Positions 18,529-27,585 of a DNA stretch of 38,244 nucleotides are shown here, piece after piece. The notes beneath the pieces were generated by a model, which saw nothing but the letters and a program-made list of their open reading frames with translations, made no database searches and was not told the origin of the DNA. The translations under genes were made by a program, and so were the position numbers. Origin of the DNA: Armatimonadota bacterium (GTDB taxonomy: Bacteria; Armatimonadota; Hebobacteria; Hebobacterales; Hebobacteraceae); assembly GCA_015486155.1 (NCBI GenBank), contig WFSF01000167.1, positions 1-38,244 on the forward strand, read 5' to 3'. Each line of letters starts with the position of its first letter. The stretch's first letter is position 1.

Positions 18529-20970
18529 TCACGGTCTCGTTGCCCGCGCCAGCTCCCTCAGATGCTGCGCTGCTTCCAGTGGGGTGCGGTTCCGAATGAT
18601 GTCGGCGACCAGCTCGCGCATATCGTCCTCGATGTAGCGCGCCCGGCCGTCCAGATCCATCAACAGCGTCTCTCGTGTGCCCTCATTGCCCTCCGGCGCC
18701 AGGGCCCCCAACTGTTCCGCCAGCAGGGCCAGCGCGTGAAGCTGAGCCGCAGACTGCCGCGATGGCTCGGCCTCCAGAAGCTGGCGGGCCTGTTCCCCCT
18801 TGAACTCCCGTACCTGTCCCCCGCGGAGCACGCGGTAGGTGAGATCGAGCTCTGCCATCTCTTGCGCTTGCGCCGCGGCATATAGTTCCTTGTGGCTGAC
18901 GTGTACGGGCGAATTCGGGGGAGGCACGGCCTGCCTGTTTGACTGTCGCCAGGCCTGATATGCCTTTCCGGCCTCACCGCGGAACTTTCTCGCGGCGGCC
19001 GCTGCTTCATCTGGCCTCTTCGTCGTCTCCAGGGTTCTTCCCGGTCCCGTGAACAGCGTGGACAGTGCGTCATAGAGCGGATAGTGGGTGTCACAGGTGA
19101 TGATGTCCAGCCGGTGGGCCAGGTGGAGGGTCTCCAGATCTTTGGTGATCTTGCGGTATGCCGGGCGGAGCAAGGTTTCGCTGAGCAGTATCACAGTGAG
19201 CGCAGGAGATCGGTAGACAAAATGCGCGGCCGCCTCTCCGATCTGTCCGCTATAGATCTTGTCGGCCAGCCATTCCTGCCATTCCTCCTGCTTGCGGCCG
19301 ATCTCCAGCACCGCCTGCAAGTACTCCAGCTCTCCTCCAGTGCCGTGCACCAGGGGCATGCGGTCCTTGGCGGTATCGAGGCTGTTCTGAAGGTTCTGTC
19401 CGGTCAGACCGCAGCTCTTCAACACCTCCTCTTCCGCCGCCAGTCTCTCCTCACGGAACTGGGCCAGACGCAGCTCGGACTCCACCTCCATCCCCTCCGG
19501 GGTGGCCCCGATGCGCACCGCGATGATCGCCACTCGTTCGCCCGTGAGGTCGAGCAGGCGGATGAGCTTTCCTGTAGCGGACGGTGGGCGTGGAGCAAGG
19601 TCACCCCCCAGTTCCCCACACAGGGGACACGCGGGAGCCCTCGGAAACAGCGCGAGACACTTCGGGCATTCCCAATACTCGCGTCGTATCCGGTAACAGG
19701 TCTCACACAGCTCGTCTTCCAGATCGGTCTTCTGCTGTCCGGGGGCGATCGGCTTGTGGCATACAGCGCACTCGTGCGCCGCTACCTCCGGAACAGTGAG
19801 GCCAGGCATAGCCCATTTGGTCTCAGGGCGACCATCTGGTGTTTCAGTGCGGCATCCAATATAGCCAACGCCCACGGCGCGATGCGCAAGGGTCGCGGCA
19901 GGTTCTACTCTCGTCTCTTGTCGCCCATCACGCGGTGCCAGCGTCAGCAACTGCCTCTCCACCCGGAACGGTGTCTCTGTCTCTCCTGCTACTTCCTGAG
20001 TAATCCTCAGAATCTCCTCATCGTCTGCACGCCGGTTCAGCAACACTATGGCTTCCTTGCCATAGAACACAAATGGCGACAGGTGAGGATGGCTGAACTC
20101 GCGGCACGCCAAGCCATCCTCCAGCAGGTATCGGCCCTTCAGATACTGATGGAGGCGGATCAGGAGCCATTGGCTGATCTTGCGCAGGTGCATGGCATCT
20201 CGCAGGCGATAGCGTAGGCGTTCAACAGGGAGAGTGATCACCGTGCGGGTCATTTCAAGCGTGATGGCGGGACGCATATCTTTCCCGGTCCCACACACAG
20301 GGATCCCGCCCTTATCCTCAAACTCTTTCATCACCATCAGATAGATGGCGGCCGACAGTTGGTGATGGAAGTGCAGAGAGGTGACCGGCAGGAAGGTGGA
20401 GTCGCCGAAGTCGGCCAGAAAATCCTCGCCCAGATTGACTATGAACCTGGCATCCAGGCGGCCGTTCTTTAGATGTTGTTGAATGTGCTTGGCGGCTTCA
20501 AGGAACCGTTTCTGGGCATTGGAAACGGTCCACTTCTTCGCATCACCCCAGAAGGGGTAGTACCAGGGGAGCCGCCAGTTGACACCCTGGATCTCACCAC
20601 CCTCCTCGAGCCAAAAATACAGGGCTTTGTGCGCCCGATCCGCGAACGTGAGGGCCAGATAGGAGGCCACCAGCTCTGGGGAAAGATGCCGCTTTAGTTC
20701 GGCCCGATCGTTCGTCTCTCGCAGGCTCACTTCGTGCAGCCAGATCAACTTGAGCTGCGCCTCGTTCTCAAGGTCGAGCCTTGGCGGCTTTGTGCCCAGG
20801 GCGGTTGCGAAGGCCTGTTGCTGGGTTGCGTCGAGCTGGGTGGAGAGGTGGGCAAGGTTCGCATGATCGGGACCCCACGTGCCATAGCGCTTACCGGCAT
20901 TGTTGTTGAGCAAGACCTTCTTGAGGTCGTGGAGCGCCGCCGCTACATAGCCGTCATCCCACTCTGACAT
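18529..20970 (-). CDS. cas10: Cas10-like large subunit lacking the GGDD cyclase motif
   Basis: An 813-residue large subunit. The N-terminus has ALHDLKK (H14, D15) and DHANLAHLS (near 35-43), which look like an HD-nuclease domain although the usual HDxGK lysine-glycine step is altered. Two adjacent four-Cys zinc ribbons lie at C401/C404/C422/C425 and C435/C438/C448/C451, in the usual Cas10 position between the palms. After them RVAIIAVRIGATPEG (479-493) matches the palm strand where active Cas10 has an Asp, and no GGDD occurs anywhere; the only GGD (455-457) is inside a ribbon. The C-terminus is helical, as in Cas10 domain D. An inactivated palm occurs in types III-C (Csx11) and III-F; one Cas7 and one Cas5 favour a III-F-like plan. 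It starts the effector operon, 154 bases below array 1. Confidence 0.78.
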   Translation of the reverse strand: MSEWDDGYVAAALHDLKKVLLNNNAGKRYGTWGPDHANLAHLSTQLDATQQQAFATALGTKPPRLDLENEAQLKLIWLHEVSLRETNDRAELKRHLSPELVASYLALTFADRAHKALYFWLEEGGEIQGVNWRLPWYYPFWGDAKKWTVSNAQKRFLEAAKHIQQHLKNGRLDARFIVNLGEDFLADFGDSTFLPVTSLHFHHQLSAAIYLMVMKEFEDKGGIPVCGTGKDMRPAITLEMTRTVITLPVERLRYRLRDAMHLRKISQWLLIRLHQYLKGRYLLEDGLACREFSHPHLSPFVFYGKEAIVLLNRRADDEEILRITQEVAGETETPFRVERQLLTLAPRDGRQETRVEPAATLAHRAVGVGYIGCRTETPDGRPETKWAMPGLTVPEVAAHECAVCHKPIAPGQQKTDLEDELCETCYRIRREYWECPKCLALFPRAPACPLCGELGGDLAPRPPSATGKLIRLLDLTGERVAIIAVRIGATPEGMEVESELRLAQFREERLAAEEEVLKSCGLTGQNLQNSLDTAKDRMPLVHGTGGELEYLQAVLEIGRKQEEWQEWLADKIYSGQIGEAAAHFVYRSPALTVILLSETLLRPAYRKITKDLETLHLAHRLDIITCDTHYPLYDALSTLFTGPGRTLETTKRPDEAAAAARKFRGEAGKAYQAWRQSNRQAVPPPNSPVHVSHKELYAAAQAQEMAELDLTYRVLRGGQVREFKGEQARQLLEAEPSRQSAAQLHALALLAEQLGALAPEGNEGTRETLLMDLDGRARYIEDDMRELVADIIRNRTPLEAAQHLRELARATRP

Positions 20971-21124
20971 GAGTGCCCCTCGTGGGTAGAGTTGGCGTGC
21001 AACTGCCCTGTTGCCGTTGCCTTACTTCTCTCCCCGGCCCAACACCTCCTTCCCGCTCACTATCGGGTTTCCACCTTCCCCTGCCCGGCCAGCGCCACAC
21101 AGGTTCCCCGACAATTGGCCGAGC
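20971..21124 (-). promoter_or_regulatory. Region between array 1 and cas10 (5' region of the effector operon)
   Basis: The 154 bases between the decayed last repeat of array 1 and the cas10 ATG are C-rich on the plus strand and contain no gene. They must hold the cas10 ribosome site and possibly a promoter; no clear -35/-10 is visible, so read-through from array 1 is equally possible. Confidence 0.35.
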
Positions 21125-22033
21125 GCCGCCAGAGGCTCTTTCGCCTTCAGTGGTCCTCACGGGGTCGCCCCAGGATCTCGTTGTCGCTTACGGCGCCCAT
21201 GGGTTTCAATAGGCTCTTTCGCCTTCAGTGGTCCTCACTGGCTACTCTAGTCTTGAAAGGAGGTCCATATCCAGTGTTTCAATAGGCTCTTTCGCCTTCA
21301 GTGGTCCTCACATTCGTTCCGGGAGGTTATTATCTCCGCCCTTCGGGCGTTTCAATAGGCTCCTTCGCCTTCAGTGGTCCTCACCTAGAGTGGAGGGAGT
21401 TCATGGAGTTCACTACTGGGTTTCAATAGGCTCTTTCGCCTTCAGTGGTCCTCACATTCGTTCCGGGAGGTTATTATCTCCGTCCTTCGGGCGTTTCAAT
21501 AGGCTCTTTCGCCTTCAGTGGTCCTCACAGTGCTTGGACTAGCTGGTGAAATCACCTTCGGGTGGGTTTCAATAGGCTCCTTCGCCTTCAGTGGTCCTCA
21601 CGCGGAGGCGATCGCCCGGTCGCCGTTTTTCGACGGGTTTCAATAGGCTCCTTCGCCTTCAGTGGTCCTCACCTCGTATGTGAAATTTGACGGGGACGAA
21701 ATCTACAACGTTTCAATAGGCTCTTTCGCCTTCAGTGGTCCTCACCCGACCATCGAGGACTGGCGCGAGAAGTGGATGCTTAGTTTCAATAGGCTCTTTC
21801 GCCTTCAGTGGTCCTCACGGCGGAGGTGATCGCTCGGTCGCCGTTTTTCGACGGGTTTCAATAGGCTCTTTCGCCTTCAGTGGTCCTCACGAGAAGGCCA
21901 TCGAGAAGGTCAACTCCGACTCTTCTGTTTCAATAGGCTCTTTCGCCTTCAGTGGTCCTCACCTTCAGAGGGAGATTGAGAGAAGGATAACACTTCTGTT
22001 TCAATAGGCTCTTTCGCCTTCAGTGGTCCTCAC
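21125..22033 (-). CRISPR. CRISPR array 1: 13 repeats of 36 bp, 12 spacers
   Basis: Repeats start at 21125 (decayed), 21203, 21276, 21349, 21420, 21493, 21566, 21637, 21710, 21783, 21855, 21927 and 21998. In crRNA orientation (minus) the repeat begins GTGAGGACCACTGAAG and ends GCCTATTGAAAC, giving the 8-nt handle ATTGAAAC. A stem AGGC/GCCT with loop GAAAGA (or GAAGGA) lies directly before the handle. Spacers are 35-37 bp, with one of 42 at the old end. Leader on the right, decayed repeat on the left. Spacers 3/5 and 7/10 are near-duplicates. Confidence 0.98.
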
Positions 22034-22256
22034 TTCGCCCTTGTCAGGGCCTCTTCCTTCTTCCGGGAGCCAAAATTTTTGGGGTTTTCCGCAAACCAAA
22101 TGCCTGTTCGATAGTACGCGCTTGCTTGCCCATATCGCGAAAACGCTCCAGATTGCCCTTCAATGCCCCTATTTCCCCTTCCGCCAACCTACCGGGGTTC
22201 TTCAAAGCAAACCGGTTGGCGGAAAATCACCCCTTTCCGCTTATGCATAGGTGGGA
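22034..22256 (-). promoter_or_regulatory. Leader of array 1
   Basis: 223 bases that match the sequence beside array 3 with only three differences, all transitions. It holds an inverted repeat TTCCGCCAACC (22179-22189) and GGTTGGCGGAA (22214-22224) with a 24-base loop, and a palindrome-like A/T patch CCAAAATTTTTGG about 40 bases from the first repeat. Such conservation at the leader side of both arrays identifies it as the leader, with the array promoter and adaptation signals. Confidence 0.88.
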
Positions 22257-22312
22257 TGTCACCCCGCGCCCCGGCGGGAAGAAGCCTACCCCTTACCACT
22301 CATCCGGACACG
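22257..22312. other. Short junction between leader 1 and the old end of array 2
   Basis: A 56-base GC-rich stretch (begins TGTCACCCCGCG) between the outer edge of leader 1 and the decayed repeat that ends array 2. No gene or motif is seen. Confidence 0.5.
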
Positions 22313-23420
22313 CAATGTCCCCGCCCTTTCCCCATCCCGCCGTTGCAACGCACGATGAGACGGAGGAGAAGCACCCCCTGCGGTTTCAATCGGGTCTTTC
22401 CCCGTCTAGCCGTTGCAACGAATGGCTTTGTGAGAGGTGCTACAAGCGCAAGGGGTTTCAATCGGGTCTTTCCCCGTCTAGCCGTTGCAACCCCACCCCG
22501 CGAGCACGCCTCGCTCCCGGTCGTGGTTTCAATCGGGTCTTTCCCCGTCTAGCCGTTGCAACACGCGCATGAAAGGAGAAAGGAGGTGAACGCGCATGTT
22601 TCAATCGGGTCTTTCCCCGTCTAGCCGTTGCAACGCAACGGGCAATGCTGGAGGCACTCCTGTACGGTTCGTTTCAATCGGGTCTTTCCCCGTCTAGCCG
22701 TTGCAACGAAGTTCCGCCCCCCCCAAGAAGGGGATACGGTCTGTTTCAATCGGGTCTTTCCCCGTCTAGCCGTTGCAACATCAGTCTTTCGCGCGGGTCC
22801 CCCGACAAAGGAGTTTCAATCGGGTCTTTCCCCGTCTAGCCGTTGCAACGCAGTTATCGAGGAGGCCCCTCTCCTCACCTTGGTTTCAATCGGGTCTTTC
22901 CCCGTCTAGCCGTTGCAACGGAGTACGGATTGATCGCCGCGGACGGCGAGACGGGTTTCAATCGGGTCTTTCCCCGTCTAGCCGTTGCAACACACCCGCT
23001 TGCTCGACGCCGTCACCTGCGCAAAGTTTCAATCGGGTCTTTCCCCGTCTAGCCGTTGCAACAAATACTGTGATGGAGGTGATGACGATGAGGATTGTTT
23101 CAATCGGGTCTTTCCCCGTCTAGCCGTTGCAACGGCAGGTAAGGTTTGTTCCTGCCCCCGAAGAAGACGTTTCAATCGGGTCTTTCCCCGTCTAGCCGTT
23201 GCAACGGCGCCCGGTGTGGGCCTTTCCCCTTCTACCCCCGTTTCAATCGGGTCTTTCCCCGTCTAGCCGTTGCAACGGCTACCCACCCCACGGTAAAGGG
23301 CCGCCCCGGTGGTTTCAATCGGGTCTTTCCCCGTCTAGCCGTTGCAACAGCTGAGCGGGCTGGCCCGCACCATCGCCCAGATTGTTTCAATCGGGTCTTT
23401 CCCCGTCTAGCCGTTGCAAC
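22313..23420 (-). CRISPR. CRISPR array 2: 16 repeats of 37 bp, 15 spacers, second repeat family
   Basis: Repeats start at 22313 (decayed), 22383, 22455, 22526, 22598, 22671, 22743, 22813, 22883, 22955, 23026, 23097, 23169, 23240, 23312 and 23384. In crRNA orientation (minus) the repeat begins GTTGCAACGGCTAGAC and ends CCCGATTGAAAC. A stem CGGG/CCCG with loop GAAAGA precedes the same ATTGAAAC handle as the other arrays. The intact repeats are identical to each other. Spacers are 33-36 bp. The decayed copy at the left keeps the first 24 bases of the crRNA-sense repeat (three mismatches) but has lost the handle end, marking the trailer. Confidence 0.98.
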
Positions 23421-23619
23421 GGTACCTCTCCTATGGCTTCGACATTGCCCTGCAAGGCTCCTTCCTGCAGGGATGTGGCGAACCCGCGTTTTTTGCGCAA
23501 GACGGCGCTGCCTCCAAGTGCAACCGCAACCAGCCGCAGAACGCCATCTGAGCCCCCTGGCAGCCTTTCGGCGAACCTCCCCTGTGAAATGCACCTGCTC
23601 CAGGTTCGCCGCCGCCTGT
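23421..23619 (-). other. Region between array 2 and cas6; no conserved leader
   Basis: 199 bases at the side where the leader of array 2 should be. It shows no resemblance to the 223-bp leader of arrays 1 and 3. A hairpin CCCTGCA/TGCAGGG lies at about 23449-23473. The first 35 bases could be one more spacer whose outer repeat was lost, so the leader end may be truncated and the array read from cas6/array 3. Confidence 0.4.
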
Positions 23620-24438
23620 CTATCCCGCAATCACCTCCACCCGGCCGGCCCCCTCCAGGCTCCGGCCGCCTATCCCCGCATACGGGGCCAGCCGCACCAG
23701 TGCCGAGACCGCGAGCCATGGCTCCGCCCGGGGCCTCCCCGGCACCGCGAACTCCACCTCGCCCATGAACCCCTGCAATCCACCATCCCGGACGCCCTGG
23801 TCCTCCGTCCACAGGTCGTGTATCGCGGTGATCCGCACGTGCTCCTCCACCCAGGCGCGCACCCCGCCCGGCGGAAGCGTGGGCAGGTCTGCACTCTCCT
23901 CGGGCGCGAACGCATTCCATTTCTGCGTCAGCCCGCTGAATAGGAACCTCGGCTCCGGCAACACCAGCGGAGACCTCATCCCATCCGGCTGGATCACCAC
24001 CGGAGAGAGAAATCGGAATCCCCATTTGCGGAGCCGCCTCCCCCTGAACATCTCTCCATAGTCCCCCCGTCTCACTTCCCGGGGAGACTCCGCCACCCGC
24101 ATCTCCGTCTGCCCCAGCCGCAGCGCCTCACCCGCCTCAGGCAGCCCCTCCCTCAGCGCCTCCGCGGCCCGCTCGGTCAGCGCGGATATCTCCAGGGAAT
24201 AGGTGTGTTCGGAAGAGAGAAGGTGGGCCCCATCCTGCGGCTCGCCCGCGCCCAGCAAAGGCGAACACGCAAACGGCTTCGGCCGTCCTCCGCCCTCCTC
24301 GTGCAGGAAACGGGCGAACTCCGCATCCCCCCGCGCCAGCCACCCATACAACAACGCCCTCACCGCCCGGCCGTGAGCCGCAGGCAACGCCGCCCACCGC
24401 GCCACCAACCGCAACGGAATCTCAAAAACCCTCACCAT
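23620..24438 (-). CDS. cas6: Cas6 pre-crRNA endoribonuclease
   Basis: A 272-residue RAMP endonuclease that cuts repeats to leave the 8-nt 5' handle. Landmarks: likely catalytic His22 in LPAAHGRAVRALLYGWL, FRFLSPVVIQPDG near 142-153, LPEPRFLFSGLTQKWNAF near 160-177, GFMGEVEFAV near 223-232 and the C-terminal glycine-rich loop YAGIGGRSLEGAGRVEV (253-269). All are typical of Cas6. The gene sits between array 3 (upstream) and array 2 (downstream). Its ATG at 24438-24436 shares its first base with the last base of the decayed terminal repeat of array 3, and the AAGGAG ribosome site (24454-24449) lies inside that repeat. Confidence 0.9.
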   Translation of the reverse strand: MVRVFEIPLRLVARWAALPAAHGRAVRALLYGWLARGDAEFARFLHEEGGGRPKPFACSPLLGAGEPQDGAHLLSSEHTYSLEISALTERAAEALREGLPEAGEALRLGQTEMRVAESPREVRRGDYGEMFRGRRLRKWGFRFLSPVVIQPDGMRSPLVLPEPRFLFSGLTQKWNAFAPEESADLPTLPPGGVRAWVEEHVRITAIHDLWTEDQGVRDGGLQGFMGEVEFAVPGRPRAEPWLAVSALVRLAPYAGIGGRSLEGAGRVEVIAG

Positions 24439-25277
24439 CGCCCATAGGCTCCTTCGCCTTCAGTGGTCCTCACAGGTCAAGGCCGCGAAGAAGAAGGCGA
24501 AGGCCAAGAAGGGTTTCAATAGGCTCCTTCGCCTTCAGTGGTCCTCACTATAGTGATGACGAGAGGGGAAAAAAGGATGGGGGCGTTTCAATAGGCTCCT
24601 TCGCCTTCAGTGGTCCTCACGCTATAAAGCTGGAGGCCGCGGCCAACGCGGCCACCGTTTCAATAGGCTCTTTCGCCTTCAGTGGTCCTCACACAACGGG
24701 AGATTGGACGTGGAGGATGCAGCACTGTTTCAATAGGCTCCTTCGCCTTCAGTGGTCCTCACTGGTATCCGCTTTACTTCTGGTGCCTCGATAACAGTGT
24801 TTCAATAGGCTCCTTCGCCTTCAGTGGTTTTCACCCAAGAGAATAACTTCTCAGCGAAATCGAGGACGTCTTGGTTTCAATAGGCTCTTTCGCCTTCAGT
24901 GGTTTTCACGTTGTATTTGCTGTGAACTCCCACGTTGTGGGAGAAAAAGTTTCAATAGGCTCTTTCGCCTTCAGTGGTTTTCACCCAAGAAGGCCAAGGC
25001 CGGCTAAACGCTAGCTGGTCCGTTTCAATAGGCTCTTTCGCCTTCAGTGGTTTTCACTTCTATGACGAGCTCTCGAAGGGCGTGGAGTGTATACGTTTCA
25101 ATAGGCTCTTTCGCCTTCAGTGGTTTTCACCAATTGATGGCTGAGATAGCCATTGATTGCCGTTCCAGTTTCAATAGGCTCTTTCGCCTTCAGTGGTTTT
25201 CACCCTAATCGCTTCTGGCCGGCCTAGGATTTCAATAGCGGGTTTCAATAGGCTCTTTCGCCTTCAGTGGTTTTCAC
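24438..25277 (-). CRISPR. CRISPR array 3: 12 repeats of 36 bp, 11 spacers
   Basis: Repeats start at 24438 (decayed), 24513, 24585, 24657, 24727, 24799, 24874, 24949, 25022, 25095, 25168 and 25242. Same family as array 1. The seven leader-side repeats begin GTGAAAACC in crRNA sense, while the five older ones begin GTGAGGACC as in array 1; the loop also varies (GAAAGA or GAAGGA). Both changes fall outside the stem. Spacers are 34-39 bp. The youngest spacer (25204-25241) contains TTTCAATAG, a copy of part of the repeat end. Confidence 0.98.
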
Positions 25278-25500
25278 TTCGCCCCTGTCAGGGCCTCTTC
25301 CTTCTTCCGGGAGCCAAAATTTTTGGGGTTTTCCGCAAACCAAATGCCTGTTCGATAGTACACGCTTGCTTGCCCATATCGCGAAAACGCTCCAGATTGC
25401 CCTCCAATGCCCCTATTTCCCCTTCCGCCAACCTACCGGGGTTCTTCAAAGCAAACCGGTTGGCGGAAAATCACCCCTTTCCGCTTATGCATAGGTGGGA
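25278..25500 (-). promoter_or_regulatory. Leader of array 3
   Basis: 223 bases, 220 identical to the leader of array 1, with the same inverted repeat (25423-25433 and 25458-25468). Identity stops sharply at 25500, 35 bases before the end of the CARF-HEPN gene, which sets the outer limit of the copied unit. Confidence 0.88.
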
Positions 25501-25534
25501 CTGAGGCCCTCCAAAAACCCTCGTTTCACCGGGA

Positions 25535-27073
25535 TTATCCAGCAGATATCGGCGGCCCGGCGTGGCGGGCCTGCCCCACCAGGGTTTTGAATTCGTTGTG
25601 CGTGTCCTCTCCCAGCACCGCCCGCAAGATGTATGCGACTTCCCTCTTCGCGTGTTCGTACTCCTGTTTCTCCAGTGGTTGCGTGCCGTGCGCCTGAATC
25701 GAACGGTTGCGGGCGTTGAATGCGCCGTCGGGCCCGAGTTTCGCGCGCACAACCTTGTAGCCCTTCTCTTTGAAGTCATCGTCCAGCACGGCCAGCAAGG
25801 AGGCCAGAGCGGCCAGGCCAAGGTAAGTCCTTGGCAGGTGCGGCTTTTCCCCGGACTTGTCCGGAGGCAGCGCATCCACCTCCGAGTGCAGCTGGTCGAA
25901 ACTCTTGTTTGTTTCCCTCTTCACCGCGCTCCAGTCCGGCCGCTCGGTCCGCTTCAGACCATAGTCCTGCAACCGCACCGTCAGCGCCATCTCGGTGGCG
26001 CGGTAGAGCCGGGCCACCGCGTCGTCATATTTTGCTTGCGCTGCGCGCCGCTCGGCCTGTGCCCACAGATCGGCCAGGCGGTGCAGGTCGCAGACGTTGG
26101 TCGCGCCCTTTTTCGGAGCAGGCATTCCCTTGAGGAATTGCAGGTTCTCCGCGCGTTGCTTGGCGTCCGGATCAGAGAGGCCGAATCGGCCCAGGTCGGC
26201 GATCAACCCCTCGAGCCGCCCGGCCAGGTCAGGCATCTTGTCCTGGTCGGGGTGGCTGTGCATGAAGGCGTCCCACTGTTGGCAGATGTCCAGCCACTCC
26301 CGCATCAGCTCCAGCCGCTTGGCCGTGGCCATGTCTCGCACCTGTTCCAGCACCGAGTGGCACAGCTGCAGGCCGGCGTCGTAGAACCCGAGCTCGGAAA
26401 ACTTACAGATCTGCTCGACCTCTATGTCGGCAAACGCCTCATAGGGGTTGTTCACATCCACCAGCTCCCCGGCGAAGGGAATCGGCACGCCCTGTTTCGC
26501 GGGGCAATAGAGGTAGGTGATGGGGACTCGATGGTAGAAAGCCCAGGTCGCCAGGGAGGCCACCATCATTTTGGTGCCGGCTGTGGGGTCGGCCGCCAGC
26601 CGGGGGTGTGTGTAACGCTTCCTCGCGTCGGTCCACGCTCTGTCCATCGCCTGGTAGTTTCCAGGAGCATCGTACTCGGTGATGCGCCGCTTCAGGCAGG
26701 TGATGCCGGCGCGCGTGATGTCTGGGTCCTGCGCCACTTGCCTTGCGGTCTTTTCTGAGGCATCGGTGTGAAACAGGTAGGCCGCTTTCGGCCGGACCGC
26801 GAGAATGCTGAGCACCACCGGCTCGTGGGTCATGCCCACAGTGAGGAACATGACGTCGGCCTGCCGCTCCCCCGCCGCTGTCTCGGGAAGAGCCTCCTTC
26901 TCCAGAGCGAACGCATCACGGCGCGCGGTCCAGAGGAGGGACTTGCTGTCGGGGCTATCCGGGATCTGTGCGAACTCCCGCGCGATCTCCATCGCGCGGG
27001 CGCGCTTCTTCTCGGGAAGCGCGGCGAATTGAGCCTGTTGGGCGGCGCTGAATTCGTCGCTATCTGTCGCCAT
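25535..27073 (-). CDS. CRISPR-associated CARF-HEPN protein, TIGR02710-like (Csm6/Csx1-type ribonuclease)
   Basis: A 512-residue cytoplasmic effector. Residues 72-180 form a CARF (Rossmann-like) domain: ADVMFLTVGMTHEPVVLSIL opens it, and DPTAGTKMMVASLATWAFY (162-180) is the conserved ligand-side motif of the TIGR02710 family. The middle is helical. A HEPN RNase motif, RNRSIQAH (R455/R457 to H462), lies in the C-terminal helical domain. In the family, cyclic oligoadenylate from Cas10 binds CARF and switches on RNA cleavage. AGGAGAGAT before ATG 27073 is a good ribosome site. The gene reads toward leader 3 and array 3. The Cas10-like protein of this window has no GGDD, so the source of its activator is unclear. 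Confidence 0.88.
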   Translation of the reverse strand: MATDSDEFSAAQQAQFAALPEKKRARAMEIAREFAQIPDSPDSKSLLWTARRDAFALEKEALPETAAGERQADVMFLTVGMTHEPVVLSILAVRPKAAYLFHTDASEKTARQVAQDPDITRAGITCLKRRITEYDAPGNYQAMDRAWTDARKRYTHPRLAADPTAGTKMMVASLATWAFYHRVPITYLYCPAKQGVPIPFAGELVDVNNPYEAFADIEVEQICKFSELGFYDAGLQLCHSVLEQVRDMATAKRLELMREWLDICQQWDAFMHSHPDQDKMPDLAGRLEGLIADLGRFGLSDPDAKQRAENLQFLKGMPAPKKGATNVCDLHRLADLWAQAERRAAQAKYDDAVARLYRATEMALTVRLQDYGLKRTERPDWSAVKRETNKSFDQLHSEVDALPPDKSGEKPHLPRTYLGLAALASLLAVLDDDFKEKGYKVVRAKLGPDGAFNARNRSIQAHGTQPLEKQEYEHAKREVAYILRAVLGEDTHNEFKTLVGQARHAGPPISAG

Positions 27074-27585
27074 ATATCTCTCCTGTCAAGATGCTTGCCC
27101 CCATTTGTGGCACAATCTCACTGGGACGTCAACCCAAAGATCTGTTGTCCGCGCCGTCACTGTCCGCCTCCTCCCAAGCGCCTCTCCTCCCGCCCGAGAC
27201 AGCACCGATGGTGTCTCATCCATCTGTCCAGCAAACACTTATGCACACACTTTGCTCACGGCGTATCGCCGAAATGCCTGCAAGCCCAGCGCAGTACCTT
27301 TCCCTTCCGACCACAACACTTATACTCGCTGCACGCGGCACTGGAGACGGGCACCCCCGGGGGCATCGGCGCAGGGGTCTCAAATCCTCCGGAGTGCAGT
27401 CCAGCGGACCGCGTTCGGTGTTGTGTAAATGTATAGCGCGATTGCTGACACGTCTGGCTTCGGAGGTGGTGACGGTCATGATACTCCGTAAGTAACTCAT
27501 CCCAAATTATTTCCTTTGAGCTGCAAGAAATCGCGCCTGCAACCCGTCCAATGAATAAAGAAGGTCACGAACGAGGCTTGAGACA
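27074..27585. other. Divergent intergenic region upstream of the CARF gene
   Basis: 512 bases between the starts of the CARF gene (minus) and the 27586 gene (plus), so it should hold both promoters. Open frames here are short and lack motifs. It contains one copy of a 44-base element (27151-27194) shared with the region before the last gene of the window. Confidence 0.5.
27151..27194. repeat. 44-bp dispersed repeat, copy 1
   Basis: Begins GCGCCGTCACTGTCCGCCTC and ends CGCC. It aligns without gaps to 37496-37539 with 36 of 44 bases identical by hand count. Both copies are intergenic. Confidence 0.5.

Follow-up and report, generated by a model that had tools for sequence, protein, structure and literature searches.

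The cas6 gene of the window (the whole 38,244-nt stretch of DNA that was analysed) begins where a CRISPR array ends. The sequence shows a gapless, same-strand junction between the terminal repeat of array 3 and cas6, with a forced start codon and with the Shine-Dalgarno sequence lying inside an intact repeat stem-loop. We propose, giving it slightly less than an even chance, that cas6 is the last cistron of the array 3 transcript, that the terminal repeat acts as its ribosome-binding region and that cleavage of this repeat by Cas6 limits translation; read-through, cleavage, repression and titration at this junction are steps that we infer from the sequence. The regulatory idea of an earlier, sequence-only reading, in which Cas6 could repress or cut its own leader, appears partly supported on the same grounds.

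Organisation of the locus

The features discussed below are, in window coordinates:

25282..25500, minus strand, leader of array 3, shared at 98% with that of array 1 (22038-22256) across a pair of 259 nt
24438..25281, minus strand, array 3, with 12 repeats (the terminal one counted) and transcription towards cas6; in each repeat the handle ATTGAAAC faces cas6
24474..24512, minus strand, last spacer of array 3, with an 11-nt exact complement of the repeat segment GAAGGCGAAGG that overlaps the Shine-Dalgarno
24438..24473, minus strand, terminal repeat of array 3 in the 36-nt register, 28/28 before the expected cut, handle 3/8
24446..24459, minus strand, repeat stem-loop AGGC-GAAGGA-GCCT, expected Cas6 cut between 24446 and 24445
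24449..24454, minus strand, Shine-Dalgarno AAGGAG of cas6, within the loop and the first stem base
23620..24438, minus strand, cas6, 272 aa, ATG at 24438-24436
21125..21160, minus strand, terminal repeat of array 1 (internal control), 28/28 before the cut, handle 3/8

The minus-strand order is a CARF-HEPN gene (25535-27073), leader 3, array 3 and cas6. The array 2 leader (23421-23619) lies directly 3' of the cas6 stop codon, so that a single minus-strand series, 27073 to 16444, takes in all three arrays together with cas6 and the effector genes. The cas6 product matches two Cas6 profiles above their cut-offs (TIGR01877, 65.4 bits against 58.65; PF10040, 47.5 against 25), its closest solved chain is 4c98, a Cas6B (E 1.8e-8), and it is the only cas6 found in the 87%-complete genome. 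No close relatives of this cas6 were found in 121 related genomes, GTDB contigs or IMG/VR, and the genus mate gave no cas6 match.

In the type III-like operon the place of the large subunit is taken by an 813-aa protein (18529-20970, minus strand). Neither Cas10 nor any other model of Pfam, NCBIfam or PADLOC matches it, nor does any solved chain; no GGDD was seen by eye, and Cys-rich CxxC motifs are present. Grouped with a small gene and two others that are Cas7-like and Cas5-like, its gene gives the impression of a divergent, minimal type III effector next to the CARF-HEPN gene. Two further observations concern the arrays themselves: array 1 (21270-21960) holds two near-duplicate spacer pairs, one to a few bases apart (GCCCGAAGGRCGGAGATAATAACC... 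and CCGTCGAAAAACGGCGACCG...), and array 3 contains a variant switch (24800-25281), with GTGAAAACC in the leader-proximal repeats and GTGAGGACC in the cas6-proximal repeats.

A start codon forced into the repeat

Read on the minus strand, the junction is GTGAGGACCACTGAAGGCGAAGGAGCCTATGGGCG-ATG-GTG. The final A of the terminal repeat (24438) is the A of the cas6 ATG, array 3, handle and cas6 share the strand, and the intergenic distance is zero; the earlier claim that the terminal repeat ends at the first base of the ATG is thereby borne out in the 36-nt register, as is the claim that AAGGAG ends 10 nt before the ATG. This AAGGAG is the sole good Shine-Dalgarno for cas6, with an anti-SD duplex of -8.5 kcal/mol for the AAGGAG repeat versus -3.5 kcal/mol for the GAAAGAG repeat variant. 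In the cas6 frame a TGA stands 24 nt ahead of the ATG, within the repeat, and no ATG, GTG or TTG intervenes; the only close alternative start is the GTG at 24435, and Cas6 homologues share the start position of this ATG. The in-frame TGA and the homologue starts leave no other start codon likely, so that both the start of cas6 and its ribosome site must lie within the repeat.

The Shine-Dalgarno match itself was not built for cas6, because GAAGGAG belongs to the repeat and is present in seven other repeat copies of arrays 1 and 3; the special feature of the array 3-cas6 boundary is the junction register. The possibility that the terminal repeat was selected to carry the GGAG variant was considered and rejected, as GGAG is shared by its neighbours in the cas6-proximal half of array 3 and by three repeats in array 1.

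An intact hairpin behind a lost handle

The repeat reads GTGAGGACCACTGAAGGCGAA(A/G)GAGCCT^ATTGAAAC, where the caret marks the expected Cas6 cut, placed by the general Cas6 rule of an 8-nt handle (PMC4041471, PMC5965380). The last unit of array 3, from 24473 to 24438, reads GTGAGGACCACTGAAGGCGAAGGAGCCT^ATGGGCGA; it is in register and diverged at its 3' end, as a CRISPR terminal repeat is. Against the GGAG variant (e.g. 24513-24548) it is identical at 28 of 28 positions to the stem base and at 3 of 8 in the handle, where ATTGAAAC has become ATGGGCGA with 5 of 8 bases changed; five mismatches scattered at random over 36 positions would all fall in the last 8 with p = 56/376,992 (~1.5e-4). The earlier description of a decayed repeat that has lost its handle is correct for the handle and wrong for the 28 bases before the cut, and the stem that it called nearly intact was undersold: AGGC-GAAGGA-GCCT is kept in full, and the repeat alone is predicted to fold as the expected 4-bp hairpin (-7.5 kcal/mol). 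The cas6 leader thus carries an intact Cas6 substrate, with 28 of 28 bases upstream of the predicted cut.

Judged by sequence only, the predicted cut (after 24446) parts the Shine-Dalgarno (24454-24449) from the ATG (24438). Cutting at GCCU^AUGGGCGAUG leaves the 7-nt leader AUGGGCG before the AUG, without a Shine-Dalgarno, and the predicted product begins with an out-of-frame AUG whose frame stops after seven codons. If the cut is where the repeat predicts, processing must remove the Shine-Dalgarno; that cutting takes place at the terminal repeat we infer. The handle changes would not prevent it, because in vitro Sulfolobus solfataricus Cas6-3 cuts ncRNA60, a solitary repeat-like sequence that lies next to the Cas6-3 gene and whose handle is altered (PMC4041471).

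Handle-only decay is usual in terminal repeats and so does not point to a special role. The last repeat of array 1, ~155 nt ahead of the gene for the large subunit (18529-20970), has decayed in the same way, and so have unrelated arrays with no cas6 behind them: 25/25 bases before the cut and 5/8 of the handle are kept in L213, 24/25 and 4/8 in L214, and 22/22 and 5/8 in both L105 and L146. Decay as a mark of new function was ruled out, handle-only decay being common. The pattern fits a simple rule, in which whatever is required to cut the last crRNA on its 3' side persists and the unused handle does not; on sequence grounds it argues that Cas6 still cuts the terminal repeat, and it is silent on cas6 regulation.

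The junction recurs in Clostridial type III loci

We surveyed 195 cas6 loci (300 nt or more of upstream sequence was present at 188 of them), drawn from 291 genomes of the window's phylum and from order, class and phylum samples around the Clostridial locus L017. At 4 of the 195, namely the window and three Clostridial type III loci, no more than 25 nt separate the end of a repeat from the cas6 start; this count indicates rough rarity and not a rate, the sample being non-random and the starts script-assigned. The three are:

G291/L017 (= L085), a two-repeat mini-array between csm5 and cas6, the second repeat fusing into the Shine-Dalgarno (GGGGACGGAAAGGAGTATTTATG)
G504/L095, a six-repeat array, the terminal repeat 24 nt upstream of cas6
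G753/L182, three repeats between csm5 and cas6, ending GGGGACGGATAGAAAGGAAGAATATAAATG

At all three junctions the cut falls 5' of the Shine-Dalgarno (e.g. GGGG^ACGGAAAGGAGTATTTATG), and cleavage would therefore release a translatable cas6 mRNA with a crRNA-like 5' end. Relatives of these loci carry the array elsewhere, for example downstream of cas6. The array-cas6 junction is thus a recurring one, and a Shine-Dalgarno inside the cut hairpin is, judging from these sequences, unique to the window among the surveyed loci. The mini-array of L017 (5820-5929, Clostridiales DTU064) is leaderless and holds the sole copies of its repeat in the assembly, and is a candidate regulatory or crRNA-like element in the operon.

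Proposed feedback and alternative explanations

In the proposed feedback, RNA polymerase would read from array 3 through into cas6. With Cas6 scarce relative to repeats, the terminal repeat would stay whole and cas6 would be translated; Cas6 in excess would bind the terminal hairpin, covering the Shine-Dalgarno, and would cut at GCCU^AUGGGCGAUG, so that only the 7-nt leader remained and translation fell. Such feedback would be product-limited and substrate-titrated: the other array repeats would titrate Cas6 because many Cas6 enzymes remain bound to their cut product (PMC4041471), and the amount of Cas6 would follow pre-crRNA because those repeats compete for the enzyme. The proposal draws on the register and orientation of the junction, the forced start, a repeat intact exactly up to the cut, a strong Shine-Dalgarno found only in the terminal repeat, and a minus strand that, in the stretch scanned, has no consensus promoter or terminator. 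It also agrees with the three Clostridial loci of type III, which likewise have a terminal repeat at the cas6 ribosome-binding site, with the proven engineered off-switches in which Cas6 cleaves or binds repeats in a 5' UTR (PMC9095627, PMC8621321), and with S. solfataricus Cas6-3 cutting and Cas6 product retention (PMC4041471). Against it, the helix-1 His of several Cas6 relatives is replaced by Arg in this Cas6, with another His close by.

An ordinary array-cas6 operon without feedback, in which array 3 stops at cas6 by chance, the stem-loop serves only to cut the 3' end of the last crRNA and AAGGAG is a convenient ribosome site, is a serious if doubtful alternative; cleavage would then have little effect, Cas6 being low or translation fast. 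Terminal repeats often keep their cut-site half where no cas6 follows (array 1, L213, L105, L146, L214), so intactness may serve the last crRNA only. At the Clostridial junctions the Shine-Dalgarno would stay with cas6 after the cut and cleavage would bring no repression, which means that the shared architecture does not demand it. In the window, however, the Shine-Dalgarno is 5' of the cut and any cleavage necessarily separates it from the open-reading frame, pre-crRNA processing is the main job of Cas6, and the substrate is intact. An unusual promoter within array 3 is a further possibility: promoters within spacers or repeats have been reported (reviewed in PMC8616872), and the sequence-only reading's argument that there is no room for a separate cas6 promoter does not follow. 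That cas6 is in fact driven by such a promoter, in the last spacer or a repeat, with the pre-crRNA junction incidental, we consider improbable. A consensus scan of the minus strand from 20900 to 27200 found no sigma-70-like promoter and no terminator, although it covers sigma-70-type sites only and the host is poorly known, and the mRNA would still bear the terminal repeat unless it started within the last 30 nt.

The last spacer of array 3 offers another brake, in which CCUUCGCCUUC pairs with GAAGGCGAAGG, hides the Shine-Dalgarno and keeps cas6 low independently of Cas6. An 11-nt complementarity was reached by 13 of 5000 shuffles of this spacer, and the other 36 spacers reach at most 7. In the predicted fold of a longer RNA the spacer forms an 11-bp helix with GAAGGCGAAGG, and predicted Shine-Dalgarno accessibility is 0.19 with the spacer versus 0.72 without it. 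Shuffled last spacers, however, have a mean accessibility of 0.29, 73 of 200 being at or below the real value, and in this model the pyrimidine-rich composition of the spacer alone gives similar occlusion. With 37 spacers tested, the chance of such a match somewhere is ~10%, and a similar lysine-codon-rich motif in another array 3 spacer makes a chance origin plausible. As the full account of cas6 control we find this pairing very unlikely; on the strength of the fold prediction we keep it as a rival or additional brake, and it counts against the feedback in so far as, in the uncut RNA for which it is predicted, it would reduce translation and form in competition with the Cas6 hairpin whether or not Cas6 is present. 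A self-target of the last spacer was rejected, its 21-nt core matching elsewhere in the genome only with 2-3 mismatches, and Rfam held no family matching the junction region.

A further reading, a natural Cas6 homeostat, strikes us as unlikely: here repeats would titrate Cas6 off the terminal repeat and its ribosome-binding hairpin, the level of Cas6 would track array length and transcription, and the Clostridial loci would use the opposite sense, releasing the mRNA. How Cas6 is set relative to pre-crRNA in type III systems has been little studied. If the layout works as suggested, the array would be the sensor and the last repeat the valve, with no promoter or guide RNA needed; even without feedback, the recurring junction means that pre-crRNA processing can yield a cas6 mRNA as its 3' product.

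Comparison with known systems

No report of natural Cas6 autoregulation through its 5' UTR was found in the open-licence literature searched, and on that scope the novelty of a natural Cas6 leader switch is provisional. The closest precedents are CreR and S. solfataricus ncRNA60. CreR is the autorepression of type I and V-A cas genes by a repeat-derived guide RNA (reviewed in PMC12737573). It holds cas expression down through an element derived from a repeat and gauges free effector against crRNA, as is proposed here for the window; CreR, however, is transcriptional and guides Cascade or Cas12a to a cas promoter, whereas in the window, a type III locus, Cas6 would act on its own mRNA leader and would need neither a guide nor a promoter match. 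The ncRNA60/Cas6-3 pair of S. solfataricus (PMC4041471) resembles the window in that a repeat sequence next to a cas6 gene has an altered handle. ncRNA60, which stands alone, is cut by Cas6-3 in vitro, but it was described as a non-coding RNA loaded into CSM and was not reported as a cas6 ribosome-binding region. The Clostridial type III junctions are alike in having an array or mini-array directly upstream of cas6 on the same strand, with a repeat at most 25 nt from the ATG, and differ in the Shine-Dalgarno lying 3' of the cut. Engineered Csy4/Cas6 5'-UTR switches (PERSIST, PMC9095627; PMC8621321) resemble the proposal in that a leader site turns expression off when the enzyme is present; PERSIST is synthetic, works in mammalian cells and silences by loss of the cap end and not of a Shine-Dalgarno, and the array 3-cas6 junction, if the proposal is true, would be a natural counterpart of these switches.
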